Of a stretch of DNA of 64,000 bases, positions 6,448 to 16,915 are shown piece after piece. Made by a program: the position numbers and the translations under genes. The notes under the pieces are model-generated. The model made no database searches. It was not told the origin of the DNA and saw only the letters and a program-made list of their open reading frames with translations. The stretch comes from Bdellovibrionales bacterium. GTDB lineage: Bacteria; Bdellovibrionota; Bacteriovoracia; Bacteriovoracales; Bacteriovoracaceae. Where the stretch lies: contig JABGUH010000005.1 of assembly GCA_018646675.1 (NCBI GenBank), forward strand, positions 62,001 through 126,000, given 5' to 3'. The stretch's first letter is position 1. Every line of letters begins with the position of its first letter.

Positions 6448-7206
6448 TCAATCTTCTACGCTTTGCATTCCGGTAAAAACGGTCTCGATCACCGCTTTTG
6501 AGAGTGGAGTGATCTGATCAGACTTTAGCATTATTACTACTGGGCTACGGTCAATAGAGGCACAGATAACCATCTCTCCTCGCTCACGATTGTACTCAGT
6601 GATAAAAAAGTGCTGCTCAAAAGATTTGGAGTAGTTCTCCATCAGTAGGGTGCCCCACTGGTCAGTTTGACTAATGGTTGGTCTCATCTCTCCTGTGGCC
6701 GAGATAAGTTGTAACTTATCCCGCTTTTTCTCCTCTTTGGGCACGAGGTCGTGGTAGATAATGGTTAGAGCAGTTGTGGCCATATTTTTATGAATAATAT
6801 CCCATAAATTTTCAACACACTTATTTCGATGGTCCTGCCATAGTTTTTGTAGGCTGTCTGTAGTGTCGAAGATCGTGCGAATTTGCTCAATATTGTTGGA
6901 TACAACCCAGCCTCCCTGTAGTCCACTGAGCAGCTCCCTGGCCTGGGTATATTCCATATTTGCAAGTTTATCAATTGGTCCAGTAAAGATTGAGCCACTA
7001 TCAATTGGCACTCTACTTCGATTTTCCTCGATCCAGGTAGAGATGGCAGGGAGTTGATCGTCCTGTTGGGAGATGATCACTGCGTGAAAAGATTTATCAC
7101 TCAACTGATCAAGGGCACACTCTTGCTGAGTTGCGGGAGCATTTGGAGAGTAGGAGGTGATATTGACCAACTCTTTGTCGGTGAGGTGAGCAATAGAAAA
7201 ATTCAT
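6448..7206 (-). CDS. Hypothetical cytoplasmic protein
   Basis: I do not recognise a family. The product has 252 residues, no signal peptide and no membrane segment, and is mixed alpha/beta in character. The N-terminal third (NFSIAHLTDKELVNITSYSPNA... ALDQLSDKSFHAVIISQ) reads like a response-regulator-type alpha/beta fold, but no phospho-acceptor pattern is clear. The C-terminal part (GEMVICASIDRSPVVIMLKS) ends in a beta-rich segment. ATG 7206 has AAGGAG seven bases upstream. It stands alone between rpmE and an exported protein gene. Confidence 0.7.
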   Translation of the reverse strand: MNFSIAHLTDKELVNITSYSPNAPATQQECALDQLSDKSFHAVIISQQDDQLPAISTWIEENRSRVPIDSGSIFTGPIDKLANMEYTQARELLSGLQGGWVVSNNIEQIRTIFDTTDSLQKLWQDHRNKCVENLWDIIHKNMATTALTIIYHDLVPKEEKKRDKLQLISATGEMRPTISQTDQWGTLLMENYSKSFEQHFFITEYNRERGEMVICASIDRSPVVIMLKSDQITPLSKAVIETVFTGMQSVED

Positions 7207-7315
7207 CAAATTTCTCCTTCAGTATCGCAAGCTTTAAACTTAGTAATTATAGTTAGCAGAGATTCATTTGGCCACCCAGCTAAAGCTCCGCTTTCGTTGG
7301 TATAAAATCAACTGT

Positions 7316-7345
7316 TTGACTAAGAGCAATAATCGTCTCTACAAT
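7316..7345 (+). promoter_or_regulatory. Possible sigma70 promoter for the 7356 gene
   Basis: TTGACT (7316-7321), an 18-base spacer and TACAAT (7340-7345) match a housekeeping promoter. If used, transcription would begin only about 3-5 bases before ATG 7356, giving an almost leaderless mRNA, although a Shine-Dalgarno sequence lies there. Either this promoter is not the active one, or the first methionine is decoded from a very short leader. Confidence 0.4.
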
Positions 7346-7355
7346 AGAGAGGAGA

Positions 7356-7997
7356 ATGAAAAATAACATTTGTTACTTAATCACCCTTTTGCTTGTGGTC
7401 ACAACTAGTGCGAACGCACAGGATGAACGCTATTTTCGTCAACTGCTATTTGAATACAAGCAGCGGGATACTTTTCAGCAAAAAAAGAGCGGTTACCACT
7501 TTATGTCTAAAAGCCCTCTCTACTCCTTGGATATAAATGGAGATAAGATAGAAGAGAGAATTGCGTACGAAGGGAGAGATGGTGAGATCTGGTTTTCTAT
7601 CTATAATAATAGCGGACATCAGATATTTAGTTATCGCTTAGATGCAGTTGGAAAGGGTGCCTCTCTCTATCGTATTAGAGTGCGAGATATCTCCTCTAGG
7701 ACTAAACTGCTATTGCTCTATTTCTATCAAGGTAATCATGATTACCTCTCTTTTAAAGGACGTTCTCGTCTCTATTTTGTCACTATTGATGATAAACGCT
7801 TGGATAAAATTAACGCTTTTAAGGGGCCGACTTTTTGGGAAGAGGCAAAGCATGCGCAGGGACACTATCACCAAAGAGCGTATAATATTTCCTTAAAGGA
7901 TTACAATCGTGATGGGATCATGGAGGTAATGGTCTCTCACCATTTGATTAATACTATTTATATGTATGTTGACTATGGTCGTTGGCGAGAGATCTAA
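7356..7997 (+). CDS. Hypothetical exported protein with calcium-loop-like repeats
   Basis: The 213-residue product has a clear signal peptide (cleavage likely after TTSANA) and is probably periplasmic or secreted. Two short segments, LDINGDKIEERIAYE (about residue 55) and KDYNRDGIMEVMVSHH (near the C-terminus), have the DxNxDxxxE spacing of EF-hand or FG-GAP/VCBS calcium loops. That suggests a small beta-sheet protein with metal-stabilised turns. No family name is secure. A ribosome site AGAGAGGAG overlaps the region just before ATG 7356. It is convergent with the next gene. Confidence 0.7.
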   Translation: MKNNICYLITLLLVVTTSANAQDERYFRQLLFEYKQRDTFQQKKSGYHFMSKSPLYSLDINGDKIEERIAYEGRDGEIWFSIYNNSGHQIFSYRLDAVGKGASLYRIRVRDISSRTKLLLLYFYQGNHDYLSFKGRSRLYFVTIDDKRLDKINAFKGPTFWEEAKHAQGHYHQRAYNISLKDYNRDGIMEVMVSHHLINTIYMYVDYGRWREI

Positions 7998-8010
7998 TCG
8001 TCGGTTTAGT

Positions 8011-8493
8011 CTAAGATGCTTGGGGAATATCCCAGTTATCGTCATCCCCATCTTTACTCTTTCTAGCACTTTTAATATCGATCATATCAGAGGTATAGTG
8101 GGAATGATCGCTTTCTACGCGCCTTAAAACGGCACTCCAAACCATATAGGGAATGCTGAGGAAAAGTAGCAGTAGTGCAATCTCTCCTGGGGTACTACCA
8201 CTATCAGAGGCGGGAGTTCTCTCTTCAAATTGCCACTGGTGATTTTCGGCTTGGAGGAGAGAGTGAGGAGGTGTATAGGTTGAACCATTCTCCAAGGTGC
8301 GCTCCAACCTTTTTGGCTTGCCGCTGGTAAAGCTGTGGCCGGGTGAGTTTTGAGCATTACTATAGGGTTCCTGCTGTCCATCAATGGCAATACTGCTGAT
8401 TGGTTCTATCGCCGGACGGCGAGCAAAGACAAAACCAGAGATCACCATTAAGACCGTTAATACTATTAGTAAATTTGGAGTTTTCTTTCTCAT
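8011..8493 (-). CDS. Hypothetical membrane protein
   Basis: A 160-residue product with an N-terminal hydrophobic segment (LLIVLTVLMVISGFVFA), a polar linker of about 75 residues rich in Ser, Pro, Gly and Thr, a second hydrophobic segment (GEIALLLLFLSIPYMVWSAVL), and an acidic tail ending DGDDDNWDIPQAS. It is likely a bitopic or two-span inner-membrane protein with the linker outside. I do not recognise a family. The longer frame to 8544 is open, but ATG 8493 has AGAGG upstream and begins directly before the hydrophobic segment. Confidence 0.6.
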   Translation of the reverse strand: MRKKTPNLLIVLTVLMVISGFVFARRPAIEPISSIAIDGQQEPYSNAQNSPGHSFTSGKPKRLERTLENGSTYTPPHSLLQAENHQWQFEERTPASDSGSTPGEIALLLLFLSIPYMVWSAVLRRVESDHSHYTSDMIDIKSARKSKDGDDDNWDIPQAS

Positions 8494-8648
8494 CGTAGCC
8501 TCTAAGTAAAAGATATTGTGTAATCTTTTCCTGATTGCGACCATTGGTCACCCTTATATGATACATTGCATGTTTGGTAATTGGTAGTGTGGGAAAAAGA
8601 GGACTGCTCCCACTTGGTGGCCCCATAGCGATATGGTCGGGTATTTTT

Positions 8649-9809
8649 ATGGATTTTAAAATAGAACGAGCATCTTCAATTGATGTTAATCAACTACTTA
8701 GTCTCTATATCTCCATCTATGGTAGGGACTATCCTCTTGAGCTTGGCAGTAACCGACAGAAAATGTTGGAGTGTATAAATGATCAAGAGCATATACTTAT
8801 GCCAGTAATTAGAGATCAAAAAAGTGGGACGATCTTTGCTGCGGCAATAGCAGAGCTAGACTTTAAATATAATATTGCCAAAATATCAGGTGTTGTGGTT
8901 CATCGCTCACATCGTGGAAAAGGGGCGGCTTCTCAGTTGATCTCCTATCTAAAGGAGCAGATTTTTTCTTTAAACCAGATCAACTCGATCTACACTACTA
9001 CTCGAACTGTTACAGTTGCTTCTCAACAGATGTTTTTAAAAAATAGTTTTGTTCCTTTGGGTATTTTTCCTAATGCTCGTAAGATCAAAAATTATGAGAG
9101 TCTTACTTTGATGGGTGTCTTTAGGGAGAATGTATTCGAATCCCGTCGGGTAGTCGAGAGCATTCCAGATTTCCTTTTTCCTCTGTTAGATACAGTTAAT
9201 CAGGTAACGGATCAACAGATAAATGTTGAGAAGATTGACTACAAAGAGGCAGGTAGACCCAAAGGGCAGGAAGATATTGATGGCGATAGTAGCGCTCACT
9301 TTGAGTTTATCTATGCTCCACGTTTTGTAAAACGACGTTTTGCCCAGATATTTGAAGCCGACCAAGATAAGAGTTTTTACCCATTTCATCACCCTAACCT
9401 GCTGATAACCTCTGAGTATCGGGAGATGGAGATCTACGCCAGTTTTAACAAGAAAGATCACTACTGTGTTCTGATTGCGGCCAATCACCCTATTTCCCAT
9501 TTAGATGATCAGCTAAAAGAGTTACTTTTTAGTATGAAGGATCTAGGGATCTACTATATCGAGACCTTAGTCAGAATGGATAATGTGGAAACTCTTTGTT
9601 ACTTATATGATAATCTATTTATTCCGGCTGCCATCTATCCTGTCATGCGAGAGATAAAAGGGGAGATGGTCGACTACGTCTTAATGACTAAAACCATGGT
9701 ACCTTTAGATTTCTCTGAATTGTCAATTACCACGCCCTTTAAGCCATTTGTAGATCAGTATGTTCATCAATGGCTAAGAAGAAATATCGACTCTCTAACG
9801 GTCCAGTAA
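8649..9809 (+). CDS. Tandem GNAT-type acyltransferase at the head of the LuxC/LuxE-like operon
   Basis: The 386-residue protein has an N-terminal GNAT domain with the acyl-CoA-binding motif VVVHRSHRGKGAASQLI (near residues 85-101) and the late signature ASQQMFLKNSFVPLGIFPNA. The C-terminal half repeats the late GNAT signature (NVETLCYLYDNLFIPAAIYP, about 320-340) but has no RGxGxA loop. It therefore looks like two GNAT domains, the second degenerate. Such enzymes move acyl groups from CoA or carrier proteins to amines. ATG 8649 gives a normal GNAT N-terminus; the frame is open from a TTG at 8574 that is less likely. Its TAA overlaps the ATG of the LuxE-like gene (TAATG), which indicates translational coupling and a shared pathway. 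Confidence 0.8.
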   Translation: MDFKIERASSIDVNQLLSLYISIYGRDYPLELGSNRQKMLECINDQEHILMPVIRDQKSGTIFAAAIAELDFKYNIAKISGVVVHRSHRGKGAASQLISYLKEQIFSLNQINSIYTTTRTVTVASQQMFLKNSFVPLGIFPNARKIKNYESLTLMGVFRENVFESRRVVESIPDFLFPLLDTVNQVTDQQINVEKIDYKEAGRPKGQEDIDGDSSAHFEFIYAPRFVKRRFAQIFEADQDKSFYPFHHPNLLITSEYREMEIYASFNKKDHYCVLIAANHPISHLDDQLKELLFSMKDLGIYYIETLVRMDNVETLCYLYDNLFIPAAIYPVMREIKGEMVDYVLMTKTMVPLDFSELSITTPFKPFVDQYVHQWLRRNIDSLTVQ

Positions 9810-10993
9810 TGAGTCCGCCTCTGCCGATGATTCCCAATGCCTCTGAACTGCCCTCACTATCGGAGTGGGCATCTCAGCAGCACCCATACCAGGTACAACC
9901 TGGAGGGGAGGCGTTATTCCTTTCAGCTTTTAAGGAGATTGTGCAATGGCACTATAGGCGTAGTCCTCTATTTGCCTCGATGATTAATGCGAGTGATATT
10001 GATCTTGATACCATTGATAGAGAGGAGCAGTTGTGGCAGATTCCACCACTACTAGCTTCATTTGTTAAACGATATGAGTTATTAAGTGTTGATCGTAAAG
10101 AGATATCACTTCACTTAACATCTTCTGGAACCTCCGGCGAGCACTCACAGGTATATTTTGATCAGTGGTCGATTGGCGTTGCTCAGACAATGGTGGATAA
10201 AATATTCTCCTACAATAAATGGGTTGAGACAGATACAAAATGCAACTATCTACTATATAGTTATCAACCAGAGGAGAGTAGTAAGTTAGGGACTGCCTAT
10301 ACTGATAACTTCCTTTGTAAATATGCTCCAATCAACTCGGTTCACTATGCCTTGCGCCTAAAGGGAGGCGGTGGACATCATTTTGATCTGTTTGGGGTAA
10401 TCGATCGGTTGCAACAGTTTTCGCAGCAGGGGCTGCCGGTAAGAATTTTTGGTTTTCCATCCTTTCTCTTTTTCACTCTTCAGCAGATGGAGCAGCAAGG
10501 AATCCCTCCCTTAAAGTTACATCCAGACTCCTTAGTTTTTCTTGGAGGGGGATGGAAGGGATATGCAGAGCAGCAGGTTAGTAAGGGAGAGCTGTACTCA
10601 TTGGCCCATCGGATGTTAGGCATACCGGCGGAGCGTCTGCGTGACGGTTTTGGCTCGGTAGAGCACTGTATTCCATATATTGAGTGTCGCCACCACAATT
10701 TTCATCAACCCGTTTGGTCCCGAGTAGTGATTCGCGATGTAAAAAGTTGGAAACCTTTAGGATTTGGAAAAGTGGGGCAGCTTAACTTTATCTCGCCCTA
10801 TATCACCTCAATGCCTCTCATCAGTGTGTTGATGGGTGATTTAGCAGTACTATATCCTGGAAGTAGTTGCCCATGTGAGATAGATTCACCCTACTTTATT
10901 ATTAAGGGAAGGGCGTCAGTTAAAAGTGGGCGTAGTTGTGCAGTTGCTGCTGCTGAGTTACTAACAAGTTTTGCTGCCAAAAGTGGAGTGTAG
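9809..10993 (+). CDS. LuxE-like acyl-protein synthetase
   Basis: Member of the LuxE family (PF04443), which adenylates a fatty or other carboxylic acid and passes it to an enzyme cysteine for reduction by LuxC. In this 394-residue product the adenylation loop is LTSSGTSGEHSQ (about 112-123), followed by GGGWKG and FGSVEHCIPY, a CPC pair near residue 353, and GRSCAVAAAE with a cysteine 18 residues from the C-terminus, where LuxE carries its acylated cysteine. The frame is open from ATG 9770, but ATG 9809 overlaps the preceding stop and is the likely start. Only 2 bp separate its stop from the LuxC fusion. Substrate is unknown. Confidence 0.88.
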   Translation: MSPPLPMIPNASELPSLSEWASQQHPYQVQPGGEALFLSAFKEIVQWHYRRSPLFASMINASDIDLDTIDREEQLWQIPPLLASFVKRYELLSVDRKEISLHLTSSGTSGEHSQVYFDQWSIGVAQTMVDKIFSYNKWVETDTKCNYLLYSYQPEESSKLGTAYTDNFLCKYAPINSVHYALRLKGGGGHHFDLFGVIDRLQQFSQQGLPVRIFGFPSFLFFTLQQMEQQGIPPLKLHPDSLVFLGGGWKGYAEQQVSKGELYSLAHRMLGIPAERLRDGFGSVEHCIPYIECRHHNFHQPVWSRVVIRDVKSWKPLGFGKVGQLNFISPYITSMPLISVLMGDLAVLYPGSSCPCEIDSPYFIIKGRASVKSGRSCAVAAAELLTSFAAKSGV

Positions 10994-10995
10994 TT

Positions 10996-13467
10996 TTGAG
11001 TAAACATCTTTGGGCCGGAAAATTTATTGATGATAGTCAGCTTGAGTCGAAACTCTCATCGTTAGGTGAGGAGATCTCCCCTGGTCTGAATAGTCAGTTT
11101 AACCACGATCATCTCTATTCGGCTTGTTGCAAGCTGGAGATGAAATTAGATGGCTCTGACTCTAAAAATTTAGAGGTGATGCCCTATCTACAGGCTTCCA
11201 ACTTAAAACTAAAACTTAAGCGTGAGCTTGGCACAATCACTCCCTTTGATTTACTTCGTCCTGATTTGCAAGAGGCAATTTTTGAAGCCTATCGTCCGCT
11301 AGGGACTCTAGTGCACATCCTTCCCGGCAACGCAGATGCACTGATTTTTTTAAGTGCGATTGAGGGCCTGTTATCTGGCAATATTAACATTTTAAAAGTG
11401 AGCTCAAAAAGTAAAGATGCCAATTACTACGTTGAGCTTTTGCAACAGTTGACTCAGCAAGATGAAAGCGGACAACTGGAAAAAATGCTCTATGTGGTGA
11501 ATTTAGAATCTTCCCAGCAAGAGCTGGTATCTGCTCTGCTCAGTTGTGCTGATGGGGTAACAGTGTGGGGAGGCGATCAAGCGGTGGCGGCAATCACCCA
11601 GCAGGTGAAGCCTGGAACCAGAGTAATCCCATGGGGACATAAGATGTCCTGCATCTACCTAGAACAAGGGTGCTTAGAGGATGACCGTTATCTGACAGAC
11701 TTGGCATCAAAAGTGGTAGCGTTAGAGCAACAGGCATGCTCTTCGCCGCAGATAATCTATGTGGAAAGCCAACGTTTTTCCGATTTGGAGCAACTGGCAA
11801 ATCGCCTGGCCCCAATATTGGACCAGGTTTCAAAATCAGTTGATCCATTAGAGGAGTTAACTTTAGGCGAACAGGCAGAGATTAAAAATGTCTCCGAAAT
11901 GGTGCGTTTAGAGTCCTTAATAGGTAAGGAGCGCCGATTAATTGAGGATAAAAATAGCGGTCAATGGCGTATTCTGGTTAGTGACGACTCCACCTTTTCT
12001 CCCTCCCCTCTATTTCGAACCATCTGGATAAAACCTCTTTTGATGAAGGAGATAATCTCAACTCTACTGCCGGTAAGGCGCTACTTGCAGACTGTTGGGT
12101 TAATTTCAAAGGTGGAGCGAATGGCTTCCATCATTGAATGTTTTATTCAGGCAGGTGTCACCAGAGTAACTTCAGTCGAAGGTATGCTGGACAGCTACTT
12201 AGGATCTCCCCACGATGGAGAGTATGCTCTAAATCGTTATTTAAAGCGGATAAGTGTAAAATTGGATCAAGAGCTACCCACTAGCCTGGCCCGGATTAGC
12301 GATCTATCCAGAGTTGATAAACATGCCAAGGGCCAGATGGATGTTAATTTAATGGATAAGCCTGCACTCCAGAGTTTAGTCGCTGGGCAAGTAGAGTCGA
12401 TTAATCACCTCTACTTTAAAAGTGGGGGGAGTAGTGGGGCCCCGGTCCTCTCTCCATTTAGTTACCAAGACTACCACTCTCAGATGCGCTTTGCCGCCGA
12501 GGGAATCTTGGCCGCAGGATTAGCACCGAAAGTGGATCGGGTAATGAATCTCTTCTTTGGAGGTGCCCTTTACGGAGGATTTTTAAGCTTTTTCTCCATC
12601 TTGGAACAACTAAAATGTTGTCAATTTCCTATGGCCGCCATCAATGATTATCAGATGGTGATTGATACGATTATTGATCAAAAAGTGGATACTCTGTTAG
12701 GAATGCCCTCTTATATTATTCCGCTCTTTCAAAAGGGGCATCAACAGTTGGCTGCCTATCAGGGAGTGAAAAAAATATTCTTTGGCGGTGAGCATATGGG
12801 CCATCAACAGATGAGTTGGTTGAAAGAGGAGTTTGGAGTCACTCTGATTCGGGCTGCAGCTTACGGTAGTGTTGATGCTGGACCTCTGGGATATCAGTGT
12901 GCAGATGCACCTACCGGGACCTATCATCTCCATCAGGATCTTCACCAATTAGAGCTTATTCAATTAGAGCAGGACCTTCCGGTTGATGATGATCAACAAG
13001 TGGGACGCTTGGTATTTTCGACTCCAAGTCGAGAGGCGGTACCACTTAAGCGTTATTTGATAGGAGATTTAGGCTGCTGGGTTAGCTCTCCCTGTCCCTG
13101 CCAAAGGCTGGGCAGGCGCTTTAAACTACTAGGAAGAGAGGGCGATATCTTTAAAGCTGGAGGGACTTTTTTAAATTATGGCCGTTTTTATTCCATTTTA
13201 GAAGAGGGCATCCCCTCTTTGGTGGAGATGCAACTGATCATTGATCAAGTTGATTTTGTGGACCGTCTCACCTTGAGTTATGTCGGTAGTGTCGCAATAG
13301 ATGAGGTGGAGAGATTAGTTAGTAGTAATTACCACGATCTTTATCAAGCTTGGAAGGAGGAGCAAGGGATGTTGTTTGATGTGAGGTCGGTAGCGCCGGA
13401 AGATCTTTTACGGACAGCGGTTGGCAAGCTGATCAAAATTGTTGATCATCGAGGTAGTAATGAGTAG
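10996..13467 (+). CDS. LuxC-type acyl reductase fused to a PaaK-like adenylate-forming domain
   Basis: One 823-residue chain. Residues about 70-420 match the LuxC acyl-CoA/acyl-protein reductase family (PF05893): an NAD(P)-binding segment around VHILPGNADALIFLS (105-120) and the catalytic-cysteine motif QQACSSPQ (Cys248). Residues about 450-820 are a phenylacetate-CoA ligase (PaaK)-like ANL domain: A3 loop YFKSGGSSGAP (473-483), AYGSVDAGPLGY (622-633), CPC (700-702), LGREGD (712-717). The chain could therefore activate an acid and reduce it to an aldehyde. I see no carrier-protein domain between the halves. Start is TTG 10996 with GGAG seven bases upstream. The stop overlaps the next gene by 8 bp. 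Standard LuxC is about 480 residues, so the fusion is real and unusual. Confidence 0.88.
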   Translation: MSKHLWAGKFIDDSQLESKLSSLGEEISPGLNSQFNHDHLYSACCKLEMKLDGSDSKNLEVMPYLQASNLKLKLKRELGTITPFDLLRPDLQEAIFEAYRPLGTLVHILPGNADALIFLSAIEGLLSGNINILKVSSKSKDANYYVELLQQLTQQDESGQLEKMLYVVNLESSQQELVSALLSCADGVTVWGGDQAVAAITQQVKPGTRVIPWGHKMSCIYLEQGCLEDDRYLTDLASKVVALEQQACSSPQIIYVESQRFSDLEQLANRLAPILDQVSKSVDPLEELTLGEQAEIKNVSEMVRLESLIGKERRLIEDKNSGQWRILVSDDSTFSPSPLFRTIWIKPLLMKEIISTLLPVRRYLQTVGLISKVERMASIIECFIQAGVTRVTSVEGMLDSYLGSPHDGEYALNRYLKRISVKLDQELPTSLARISDLSRVDKHAKGQMDVNLMDKPALQSLVAGQVESINHLYFKSGGSSGAPVLSPFSYQDYHSQMRFAAEGILAAGLAPKVDRVMNLFFGGALYGGFLSFFSILEQLKCCQFPMAAINDYQMVIDTIIDQKVDTLLGMPSYIIPLFQKGHQQLAAYQGVKKIFFGGEHMGHQQMSWLKEEFGVTLIRAAAYGSVDAGPLGYQCADAPTGTYHLHQDLHQLELIQLEQDLPVDDDQQVGRLVFSTPSREAVPLKRYLIGDLGCWVSSPCPCQRLGRRFKLLGREGDIFKAGGTFLNYGRFYSILEEGIPSLVEMQLIIDQVDFVDRLTLSYVGSVAIDEVERLVSSNYHDLYQAWKEEQGMLFDVRSVAPEDLLRTAVGKLIKIVDHRGSNE

Positions 13468-14746
13468 GCGATTTGCTCCGCGGAAGCTATTGCAGTTTGC
13501 CAATCAAAAATCTCCATATTATCGAGAGTTATATCAGAAGTGTGATCTGGCCAAAATATCTTGGGAGGACCTCCCCATTGTTGACCTACCATCTTTTTGG
13601 CATGCCAACAGTTATTATAATAATCACCTGCTAACAGAGCAGATTGCCCAGGGAGTAGTGTTTAAAAGTGGTGGAACCACCGGTGCTCCTAAATTCTCTA
13701 TTTATACAAATAGAGAGTGGGAGGAGTTTACTGCTATTTTTGGTCACCACCTTGCAAAGAACTCACTACAGAGGGGAGACCGAGTGGCAAATCTTTTTTA
13801 TGCTGGCCATCTCTACGCTTCATTTCTCTTTATTCAAAAGTCTTTTGAGAAGTGCCCAACCCCGATTGTGAATTTTCCAATCAGTGGTAATCTTCCTCCT
13901 GAAGAGATCGTCTCTCTATTGGTGCAGTATCAGATAAACACTTTGGCAGTAGTGCCCTCGACCTTAGTCAATATGGTGGAACAGCTACGTAAGCATCAGC
14001 GGGAGTTACATTTAAATAAAATTCTTTTTGGTGGAGAGGAACTCTATGATGATCAACGTCAGTTGATACAATCTCTCTTTCCCAAAATAGAGATTTGCTC
14101 GATTGGCTATGCCTCGGTAGATGGAGGCCATTTAGGATACGTGGATGTAGATTGTTCATCTCGTGAACATCGGGTATTTACCGATAGTACTATTATGGAG
14201 ATAGTTGACCCAGAGAGTGGTCAGCAGATTACTGAGGAGGGAAAGGTTGGAAGGCTGATTTATACCAATCTTACTCGTTCGCTAATGCCGATTATTCGTT
14301 ATCCAGTGGGTGATATGGCCAAATGGGTAGAGAGCCGTGTGGTGGATGGTAAATTTTTTGGTGAAAAATTTCGACTTGAGGGGCGCTCAGAGGATGGGGC
14401 CAGAGTTGGGCCAGTTACAATTAATCGCGAGGATGTCGCAGCTATTATAAAAGAGCTTGCCTATTCAGCGATGATTGTTGACTTTCAGATGACGATTACC
14501 CGTCAAACCACCCGGGATCAGTTAAGGCTGGTTTTGGCGATTGAGGGGATTAATCTTGATAATGCCAAACAGATTGGAGCAGATATTATCCAGCACTTTT
14601 ATCAGCAGCGCGAGATGTTTAAAATTGCCGTGGAGGACGGCACTATTATGCCTTTGAAGGTCAAAATAGTGATTCCTTGCGATTTGGAGCGCAATCCACG
14701 CACTGGCAAGTTACTCCGAGTAATTGACCACCGCCTCGAGCAGTAA
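13460..14746 (+). CDS. PaaK-like adenylate-forming enzyme
   Basis: A 428-residue ANL-superfamily enzyme related to phenylacetate-CoA ligase. The adenylation loop is FKSGGTTGAPKF (about 68-79); further motifs are NLFYAGHLYASF, KILFGGEEL, YASVDGGHLGY and FRLEGRSEDG. These line up with NLFFGGALYGGF, KIFFGGEHM, YGSVDAGPLGY and FKLLGREGD in the C-terminal half of the preceding fusion protein, so the two are paralogues, probably by local duplication. It lacks the CPC pair found in the other two ANL proteins of the operon. ATG 13460 has GAGGT upstream and overlaps the preceding stop by 8 bp. It probably activates a second acid or completes the same acyl transfer. Substrate is unknown. Confidence 0.85.
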   Translation: MSRRFAPRKLLQFANQKSPYYRELYQKCDLAKISWEDLPIVDLPSFWHANSYYNNHLLTEQIAQGVVFKSGGTTGAPKFSIYTNREWEEFTAIFGHHLAKNSLQRGDRVANLFYAGHLYASFLFIQKSFEKCPTPIVNFPISGNLPPEEIVSLLVQYQINTLAVVPSTLVNMVEQLRKHQRELHLNKILFGGEELYDDQRQLIQSLFPKIEICSIGYASVDGGHLGYVDVDCSSREHRVFTDSTIMEIVDPESGQQITEEGKVGRLIYTNLTRSLMPIIRYPVGDMAKWVESRVVDGKFFGEKFRLEGRSEDGARVGPVTINREDVAAIIKELAYSAMIVDFQMTITRQTTRDQLRLVLAIEGINLDNAKQIGADIIQHFYQQREMFKIAVEDGTIMPLKVKIVIPCDLERNPRTGKLLRVIDHRLEQ

Positions 14747-15174: not shown

Positions 15175-15981
15175 ATGGATTTTTCACAAGTTGATATTGC
15201 TCAGCTAGTACAGGAGACCTTTCAGGTTAATCGTGTCAAGCTAGCTGATTGTCACTCTGAAGTGCAGGATGGCTTGACGGGGCCGGGGCTGATCTACTCC
15301 CTGCAGGGCGGTGCCAATACTTTCTCTATTCGCGGCTTGGCCACTGGTTCAATCAAACAGACCTTGAAAAATATCCACGATGATTCCAGCTTACAGCGGA
15401 TCTTAAAGATCTCAGAGTATTATCCGGTGGAGGATCTGCTCTACTATCCCACCCCTGAGAAGCTGGAGGCAGATGTTATTATTGATCATCTTGGTAATCG
15501 ACGTTTTCCCTACCAAGAGGATTCGTTGTGTAACCTCAGTGATCCAGGATTTAGCTGGTGGATGCAGCATGATAACAATAGTATCTCCATCTATTTCAAA
15601 TCCTTTGGGATTGAACGTGTTTCGAATCTTGTGCAGTTGGGACCAATCGCAGATACTGCTTTGGCCATCTCCCACCTTCAGGAGATCAGCAAATATCTTG
15701 AGAATCTCTTTCCAGTAGCAGAAGTTTTCTGCTCACCCAAGCAGTTTACTGTTGCGACCAAAGATTATAGTGCTGAGTGCTTTAACTGCTTAAAAAAACT
15801 ATTTTTAGATGGAGAGTGGGGTAGTAGTGCCCCCTACTTACGTTTTAACTCCCTACCCAAAACCCCCCTGCTATTTTTATCTGAGGTAGCGGCAATACGT
15901 AGATTTTGGATTCATCTGGAGCAGCAGATAAGGCGGAAGTCAAATTTGTCCTCCTGCCCAACCAATAATATTCAACGGTGA
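15175..15981 (+). CDS. Hypothetical cytoplasmic protein
   Basis: I do not recognise a family. The product has 268 residues, no signal peptide and no convincing membrane segment. A repeated theme is short amphipathic beta/alpha segments (GLIYSLQGGANTFSIRGLATGS, ISIYFKSFGIERVSNLVQLGP, ISHLQEISKYLENLFPVAEVFCSP). A small cysteine cluster (CFNCLKKLF near residue 200) is present but no full zinc motif. It has its own promoter and is followed by a separate promoter for the next gene, so it is probably transcribed alone. Confidence 0.65.
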   Translation: MDFSQVDIAQLVQETFQVNRVKLADCHSEVQDGLTGPGLIYSLQGGANTFSIRGLATGSIKQTLKNIHDDSSLQRILKISEYYPVEDLLYYPTPEKLEADVIIDHLGNRRFPYQEDSLCNLSDPGFSWWMQHDNNSISIYFKSFGIERVSNLVQLGPIADTALAISHLQEISKYLENLFPVAEVFCSPKQFTVATKDYSAECFNCLKKLFLDGEWGSSAPYLRFNSLPKTPLLFLSEVAAIRRFWIHLEQQIRRKSNLSSCPTNNIQR

Positions 15982-16026
15982 GATCTGTCACAACGCGTCG
16001 CCCAATCGAAAAGTACTAACATCTGC

Positions 16027-16055
16027 TTGAGAAAAAATTAATACACTGTTACAAT
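16027..16055 (+). promoter_or_regulatory. Sigma70-type promoter for the FtsB/DivIC-like gene
   Basis: TTGAGA (16027-16032), a 17-base spacer and TACAAT (16050-16055) form a good promoter. An 11-base direct repeat ACAGGATGTTG (16066-16076 and 16086-16096) lies in the leader, and each copy supplies an AGGA ribosome-site sequence. Confidence 0.6.
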
Positions 16056-16099
16056 TAAAGTAATTACAGGATGTTGTACACTTGAACAGGATGTTGATA

Positions 16100-16915
16100 G
16101 TGGAGTTTAATTTTTCATCTAGTCGCCGTAACAAAGCTCAACCTAGAGCGGTATCATCTGGTGATGATGACCGCTTGCAGCGGGCGATCGAGCGGAATAA
16201 GGCAAAACAGCGAAAAAGAGGGATGCAGAGTCAAGGCGCAGATCTTCCTGGGGCCAGGGTTGGTACACTCGGTGACCGTACTCGTAATATTTCTGCTTCT
16301 GCCTCAAGACAAGAGGGGCAGGATGAGTTTCTAGAGCAGTTGCGGCAACGTAAACAGCACCGCCACCACCAAGAGATGGCATCAGGACGAGATAGTAATT
16401 TATCAGAGCGTCGTACAGTAGGACGAGCCGATAATGTTGAGTTTACCTCCAGCTTAAAAAAGCGGGGTGTGAAGAAGGAGGAGGGAGTACTCTCAAAGTT
16501 CCTTCCAGACCGACCTGTCGGAGGACAAAAGTCCAAGATCATATCGGCACGTCAAGAGCGTCTAGTTCGTTCTAGACCTGCTGCCACAACTAGATTGGCA
16601 AGATCAGGCAGATCCTATGGCAAATTGGTGACCTATTTAACTAGGGCCGGATGGTTGGTCTGCGTGGCGATGATGGTCAACCTTACGATCTCAGAGGGGG
16701 GGGTGTTAGATTTCTACGCCAAAAAAAGGTTGTTAACCTCCTATCAATGGGAGCACCAGACCGTTTTGGATGAAAATGATGCCATTGAGCTGGAGATCAA
16801 AAGGATTCGTAGCGATCACCGCTATCAGAAGAGATTGGTTCGTGATCACCTAGGTTTTATTCTAAAGAGCGAGTTTTTAATTCTTTTCCCCCGGAAGGTG
16901 GGAGAATCCACTTAA
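16100..16915 (+). CDS. FtsB/DivIC-like septum protein with long basic N-terminal region
   Basis: Residues about 180-270 have the FtsB/DivIC layout: one transmembrane helix (GWLVCVAMMVNLTISEGGVL), a short charged coiled coil (LLTSYQWEHQTVLDENDAIELEIKRIRSD), then LVRDHLGFILKSEFLILFP. These proteins sit in the division site with FtsL and FtsQ. Known members are about 100 residues; here about 180 extra cytoplasmic residues precede the helix, rich in Arg, Gln, Lys and Ser with clusters such as QRKRG and RQRKQHRHH, likely disordered and nucleic-acid or phosphate binding in charge. GTG 16100 has AGGA eight bases upstream; TTG 16082 and ATG 16091 are alternatives. The last 59 bases overlap the convergent DUF192 gene. 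Confidence 0.72.
   Translation: MEFNFSSSRRNKAQPRAVSSGDDDRLQRAIERNKAKQRKRGMQSQGADLPGARVGTLGDRTRNISASASRQEGQDEFLEQLRQRKQHRHHQEMASGRDSNLSERRTVGRADNVEFTSSLKKRGVKKEEGVLSKFLPDRPVGGQKSKIISARQERLVRSRPAATTRLARSGRSYGKLVTYLTRAGWLVCVAMMVNLTISEGGVLDFYAKKRLLTSYQWEHQTVLDENDAIELEIKRIRSDHRYQKRLVRDHLGFILKSEFLILFPRKVGEST

Follow-up and report, generated by a model that had tools for sequence, protein, structure and literature searches.

A LuxE and LuxC::PaaK operon of a Bdellovibrionales bacterium as a probable leupeptin-type cassette for peptide aldehyde synthesis

We analysed a 64,000-nucleotide stretch of DNA from a Bdellovibrionales bacterium of the family Bacteriovoracaceae (assembly GCA_018646675.1, contig JABGUH010000005.1, positions 62,001 to 126,000; hereafter the window). 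Our subject is an operon that combines homologues of the bioluminescence proteins LuxE and LuxC with PaaK-like ligases and an N-acyltransferase. It consists of four open reading frames (ORFs) on the same strand (+) and spans 6.1 kb (window positions 8649-14746). The genes are joined by a TAATG overlap, a 2-bp gap and an 8-bp overlap, and these coordinates agree with an earlier note, made from the DNA letters alone, which had taken the four genes for one unit.

The first gene (8649..9809, +) encodes a tandem-GNAT N-acyltransferase of 386 amino acids (aa; PF00583, 2.6e-9). Its N-terminal domain (residues ~1-150) includes the acetyl-CoA loop-like motif HRSHRGKGAA, and a second GNAT-like domain lies at residues ~218-350. 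The AlphaFold2 model (predicted local distance difference test, pLDDT, 91.4) displayed an N-terminal GNAT fold followed by a second GNAT-like alpha/beta half, as the earlier note had proposed. Foldseek led from this model to GNAT N-acetyltransferases, and the nearest solved relatives by sequence profile (PDB) are N-alpha-acetyltransferases. The second gene (9809..10993, +) codes for a LuxE-like acyl-protein synthetase (PF04443, 6.8e-25) with the A3 loop TSSGTSG. Its ORF is open from 9770 to the stop at 10993; the start at 9809 is favoured by homologues and by the TAATG junction. The protein aligns with LuxE of Photobacterium phosphoreum (7xc6_E) as far as the C-terminal acyl-acceptor cysteine (codon 10937-10939, C390 counting from 9770), which in the Lux system bears the acyl group.

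The third gene (10996-13467, +, TTG start, 823 aa) is a LuxC::PaaK fusion. Its LuxC-type reductase domain (residues ~1-425, 10996..12270, +; PF05893, 4.7e-74) matches LuxC of the same complex (7xc6_A) in both sequence and fold, and ACSSPQ (within QACSSPQ) marks the LuxC active-site region with Cys248 (codon 11737-11739). The PaaK-like adenylate-forming domain behind it (residues ~440-823, 12313..13467, +; TIGR02155, 1e-18) has the A3 loop KSGGSSGAP and the A10 lysine Lys811, and matched PaaK/BT_0428 in the PDB (4r1l, 3e-18); its AlphaFold2 model reached a pLDDT of 88. A stand-alone PaaK-like adenylate-forming ligase (13460..14746, +) with the A3 loop KSGGTTGAPK completes the operon; it matched NCBIfam PaaK models at 3.4e-27 (NF041878) to 6e-27 and 4r1l at 1.2e-21. 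The Pfam AMP-binding family matched the operon proteins weakly. The earlier note was right about the three adenylate-forming modules, the single aldehyde-forming reductase and the single N-acyltransferase.

Pfam detected neither a carrier-protein domain (PF00550) nor a condensation domain in any operon protein, which is consistent with free-standing ligases. Among the 50 window ORFs of at least 150 aa scanned with Pfam there was neither a luciferase (PF00296) nor a LuxD family member, a result that applies to the window and not to the whole genome; the earlier note had likewise seen no luxA, luxB or luxD here. LuxE and LuxC could still form a true fatty acid reductase branch that supplies a long-chain aldehyde for lipid or wax, with PaaK and GNAT using the aldehyde or a second acid. 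In fold and in their acyl-transfer cysteines both correspond to the fatty acid reductase complex 7xc6, and at L036, a divergent locus, the operon is followed by genes for a PlsC acyltransferase and a single GNAT. We consider this explanation improbable: the window LuxC and LuxE score far under the equivalog cut-offs (57.4 vs 750 and 61.4 vs 550 bits), no recurrent lipid genes lie beside the cassette, and the constant GNAT and the extra ligases suit peptide chemistry better. Moreover, Photorhabdus has a true lux operon in addition to the cassette, so the cassette is not the aldehyde supply of the light system. Bioluminescence by way of a fatty aldehyde was rejected because of the equivalog scores, the lack of luxAB in the window and this coexistence.

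The cassette is not confined to the window. Of 58 related genomes sampled, 13-14 from the window's own family (Bacteriovoracaceae/Halobacteriovorax) have the full-length fusion (39-45% identity) and 5 others a divergent three-gene form; none of the 22 genomes from the phylum's other families has either. A genome scan with a single sequence had found no loci; with an alignment as query, a scan of 84,980 species recovered 80, in Bdellovibrionota, Actinomycetes, Pseudomonas, Algicola, Elusimicrobia, Obscuribacterales, Chloroflexi, Armatimonadetes and others. The actinomycete carriers belong to Streptantibioticus, Streptacidiphilus, Kitasatospora, Kutzneria, Amycolatopsis and Streptomyces. In one Pseudomonas-like family 36 of the 398 genomes contain the cassette, as do 14 of the 392 genomes of Enterobacteriaceae; no close copy was found in E. 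coli genomes, and a class-wide sample of Gammaproteobacteria yielded only the query genome.

With the enterobacterial ones included, 95 fusion-bearing loci were compared. The window order, GNAT-LuxE-fusion-PaaK, is shared by 42 loci, while 17 have LuxE-fusion-PaaK-GNAT, 15 the three-gene order GNAT-LuxE-fusion and 8 an inverted PaaK gene. LuxE and fusion genes overlap or lie at most 30 bp apart at every junction (82/82). The trees of LuxE, fusion and PaaK have 36-40 of 56 splits in common, and both the actinomycete clade and the Enterobacteriaceae-Pseudomonas clade received a support of 100 in each tree. Since the trees agree, the genes were inherited together, and the constant membership despite rearranged order is strong evidence for a single pathway. 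The recurrence of the cassette is beyond chance. The earlier note had proposed a search for the four-gene order elsewhere and had considered an order found by chance in one genome, or loss of the LuxC motif and adenylating domains in relatives; neither was observed. The catalytic residues are kept throughout: the LuxE acyl-acceptor cysteine in 91/91 proteins, the LuxC active-site cysteine in every sequence covering that position (95/95), and the adenylation residues in 94-96 of the 96 fusions and 73-75 of the 75 stand-alone PaaK proteins. Judged by these residues, the cassette looks active.

Some loci vary in detail. In L105:9995-12489 (450 + 381 aa, 4-bp overlap) and L125:9659-12055, two separate ORFs take the place of the LuxC::PaaK gene, which may reflect a natural domain separation or a sequencing frameshift. 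Homologues of the tandem GNAT are also encoded at other sites in some genomes: G019 (C59) and G025 (C10) have one in addition to the operon copy, and in G017 (C36) it is the sole copy. The cassette of Pantoea sp. Cy-639 (L092) is similar to that of Pseudomonas sp. UFMG81. A Salmonella enterica cassette (L130) lies at 106-111 kb of the IncF conjugative plasmid CP054717.1, in a region with Tn3 transposase and recombinase genes, and a Tn3 transposase adjoins the cassette of L184; both settings suggest that the cassette is mobile.

The cassette flanks differ among the loci examined, which indicates that the four genes are sufficient for the product. A single profile of the major facilitator superfamily (MFS) matched directly upstream of or beside the cassette in 15/95 loci, all co-directional and touching or at most 11 bp away, and MFS genes were also found at further enterobacterial and actinomycete cassettes. 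Such frequent neighbours would be expected of an exported small molecule, and we regard the adjacent transporter as an accessory rather than a defining leup trait. On the Streptomyces sp. NBC_00158 plasmid (L131), an MFS transporter gene lies within the cassette, between PaaK and GNAT, and three genes for I36-family peptidase inhibitors are located just past the cassette. Upstream of the window operon (6448-8544) are three genes for proteins of 253 aa, 213 aa (with an FG-GAP-like repeat) and 177 aa, and this trio keeps the same arrangement beside the cassette in 9-10 related genomes.

The neighbourhoods also bear on a role in sugar or glycan modification, as in the flagellar glycosylation islands of Aeromonas. 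LuxC- and LuxE-like genes feature in two papers on such islands in non-luminous bacteria (PMC7874193, PMC4875605). Among the neighbours examined, however, there were no recurrent glycosyltransferase, nonulosonate or O-antigen genes; the cassette stands alone between varied flanks, and we hold this role to be very improbable. Three further candidates were rejected. Family matches for aryl-acid activation (flexirubin FlxY, BagE, phenylacetate) were weak. The AblB match of the GNAT protein, pointing to beta-lysine acetylation, was below the cut-off, and a KamA-like protein was seen nearby only in an actinomycete locus (L068, Herbihabitans; a lysine 2,3-aminomutase-like protein at 15311-16618, recognised by eye). 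A TonB receptor upstream of the Pantoea cassette, which could have indicated a siderophore, is not conserved.

A better match came from the leup operons for leupeptin. Xenorhabdus bovienii produces leupeptin by means of individual AMP-dependent ligases together with a reductase (PMC11212599, citing Li et al. 2020), and in Photorhabdus, Xenorhabdus and Klebsiella oxytoca the leup operons give rise to leupeptin, a Lys analogue and derived pyrazinones (PMC11480411). The leupABCD operon of K. oxytoca comprises four genes and an adjacent transporter (CP011636.1, 315353-321183; PMC8283571). It measures 5,781 bp from the start of leupA to the end of the cluster; Photorhabdus-type cassettes in our set measure 5,757-5,759 bp. 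The antiSMASH margin is usually 10 kb on each side. The 'Leupeptin' region that antiSMASH reported for P. khanii covers 25,759 bp (32,661-58,419), and a 20,708-bp cyclodipeptide synthase (CDPS) region in the same table is consistent with a margin of 2 x 10 kb (PMC12542766). Subtraction of this margin leaves a leupeptin core of 5,759 bp, the same as the cassette in L188, L192 and L193. A true LuxC (NF052251, above the cut-off) is encoded in 4 of the 14 cassette-bearing Enterobacteriaceae genomes. Photorhabdus is the luminous enterobacterium, so by that trait these four genomes are Photorhabdus; L188, L192 and L193 come from three of them.

We therefore consider it probable (about 80%) that the window operon is a leup-type cassette, a non-ribosomal route that needs no non-ribosomal peptide synthetases (NRPS) and leads to a small peptide aldehyde with an acylated N-terminus. 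Like leupeptin, this product would inhibit serine or cysteine proteases reversibly. The parts list of one N-acyltransferase, three acid-activating modules and one aldehyde-forming reductase matches the needs of Ac-Leu-Leu-argininal. The earlier note had read the chemistry well, as acid activation, aldehyde formation and N-acylation. Its proposal of an undescribed system did not hold: the Photorhabdus cassette and the leup operon agree in length, number of genes, neighbouring transporter and reported chemistry, and the system is very probably of the known leup type. Relative to the literature examined, two things are new: the three-gene variant, and the presence of the cassette in Bdellovibrionota as well as in several further phyla. 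Leupeptin is not mentioned in the examined literature on Bdellovibrionota metabolites; the original leup description lies outside that literature, and an earlier notice of homologues is possible.

We infer the following division of labour among ligases and reductase. The GNAT protein would use acetyl-CoA to acetylate the first amino acid at its alpha-amine. Each PaaK-like module would adenylate a carboxylate for attack by the incoming amino acid, so that two modules would form two amide bonds (X-Y, then Y-Z). LuxE would then adenylate the C-terminal carboxylate of the finished peptide, load it on its own C-terminal cysteine and hand the acyl group to the LuxC active-site cysteine, where reduction with NAD(P)H would yield the aldehyde; the pair would work as it does in the fatty acid reductase complex, only with a peptide acid as substrate. 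Two amide bonds and one reduction thus account for the three adenylating modules, the count required for Ac-Leu-Leu-argininal. The earlier note, which rightly saw no luciferase to consume the aldehyde, had left its fate open; it would be the reactive end of the finished product, and so no luciferase-like consumer is expected. Early work on leupeptin in Streptomyces reportedly described three enzymes that would map onto the cassette genes: a leucine acetyltransferase dependent on acetyl-CoA, a leupeptin-acid synthetase, and a leupeptin-acid reductase dependent on ATP and NADPH.

Several points weigh against this reading. The proposed homology to leupABCD derives from lengths, gene content and descriptions, not from an alignment. 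The published leupA primer matched none of the loci, and the peptide derived from the leupB primer was unspecific. Neither the primer pattern, searched for in the loci, in viral contigs and in relatives of E. coli, nor an enterobacterial 16S pattern led to a leup sequence of K. oxytoca or K. michiganensis. In enterobacteria the GNAT protein is shorter than in the window, and its match to the window GNAT is limited to the N-terminal ~135 residues (hhalign, 97.5%). No MFS gene adjoins the window operon. Finally, the window fusion is ~36-44% identical to members in other taxa, and at this distance the substrates of the window cassette may differ. The product might also be a signal, with protease inhibition incidental: the aldehyde of an amino acid or dipeptide would cyclise and yield a pyrazinone, given that leup-derived pyrazinones are known signals of K. 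oxytoca (PMC11480411). We judge this quite improbable, as those pyrazinones come from leupeptin itself and, with the N-acetyltransferase always present, direct cyclisation would be blocked until a protease had cut off the acyl end.

The three-gene version, GNAT-LuxE-LuxC::PaaK without a stand-alone PaaK (L036, L037, L039, L040, L041; L108, L113-L129), has a fusion ~22-27% identical to that of the window. In L037, L039 and L040 a gene for a class II fructose-bisphosphate aldolase comes next after the operon. With one ligase fewer, it looks like a variant of the leup-type cassette, and by the logic of module counts its two adenylating modules would give a dipeptide aldehyde. More tentatively, the leup-type cassette might be broadly mobile, with the number of adenylating modules setting peptide length: tripeptide aldehydes from the four-gene form with three modules, dipeptide aldehydes from the three-gene form of Bacteriovoracaceae, Oligoflexales, Chloroflexi and Muiribacteriota. 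The product of predatory Bdellovibrionota would then differ from leupeptin and control proteases in prey digestion, and the actinomycete versions would explain NRPS-free leupeptin; we regard this extension as possible though doubtful.

If the leup-type assignment is true, predators that live by secreted proteases also make a small protease inhibitor, for self-protection or for control of prey digestion. The actinomycete cassettes would be concrete NRPS-free candidate genes for the leupeptin-type inhibitors of actinomycetes, known since 1969 and later ascribed to NRPS (PMC10548850). Cassette genes are at present labelled 'acyl-protein synthase' or 'acyl-CoA reductase (bioluminescence)'; the combination of LuxE, LuxC::PaaK, PaaK and GNAT should instead be annotated as probable peptide-aldehyde synthesis.

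Among known systems, amide and ester ligases of the PaaK family (NatL2, AjiA1; NCBIfam BagE/FevW, FlxY) share the PaaK-like fold and motifs with both PaaK modules, but use aryl substrates, and the window modules score far below the equivalog cut-offs. The NRPS-derived peptide aldehydes (antipain, MAPI, flavopeptins) and livipeptin belong to the same product class, an N-capped peptide with a C-terminal aldehyde. They are made by carrier domains with a terminal reductase or by a tRNA-dependent enzyme, whereas the cassette is free of carrier proteins and condensation domains. Likewise, in NRPS with a terminal reductase and in carboxylic acid reductases a carrier domain joins adenylation and reduction, and the window proteins have none. 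The Lux fatty acid reductase complex (LuxC-LuxE-LuxD, 7xc6) shares the LuxE adenylation fold with its C-terminal acyl-acceptor cysteine and the LuxC reductase with its active-site cysteine; in the window, LuxC is fused to a PaaK domain, and the scanned ORFs include neither LuxD nor LuxAB. Closest is leupABCD of Photorhabdus, Xenorhabdus and Klebsiella oxytoca/michiganensis. The window differs from it in its GNAT-first order (LuxE-fusion-PaaK-GNAT in enterobacteria), in the GNAT didomain of 386 aa (~300 aa in enterobacteria), in the fusion identity given above and in having no transporter beside the operon; at leup-type cassettes one is often adjacent. Both consist of four contiguous genes, and the AMP-dependent ligases and reductase of the literature would have their window counterparts in the three adenylate-forming (ANL) modules and the LuxC domain, with catalytic residues kept. 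Photorhabdus-type loci hold the same four protein classes as the window, and the Photorhabdus cassette has the length of the leup core.

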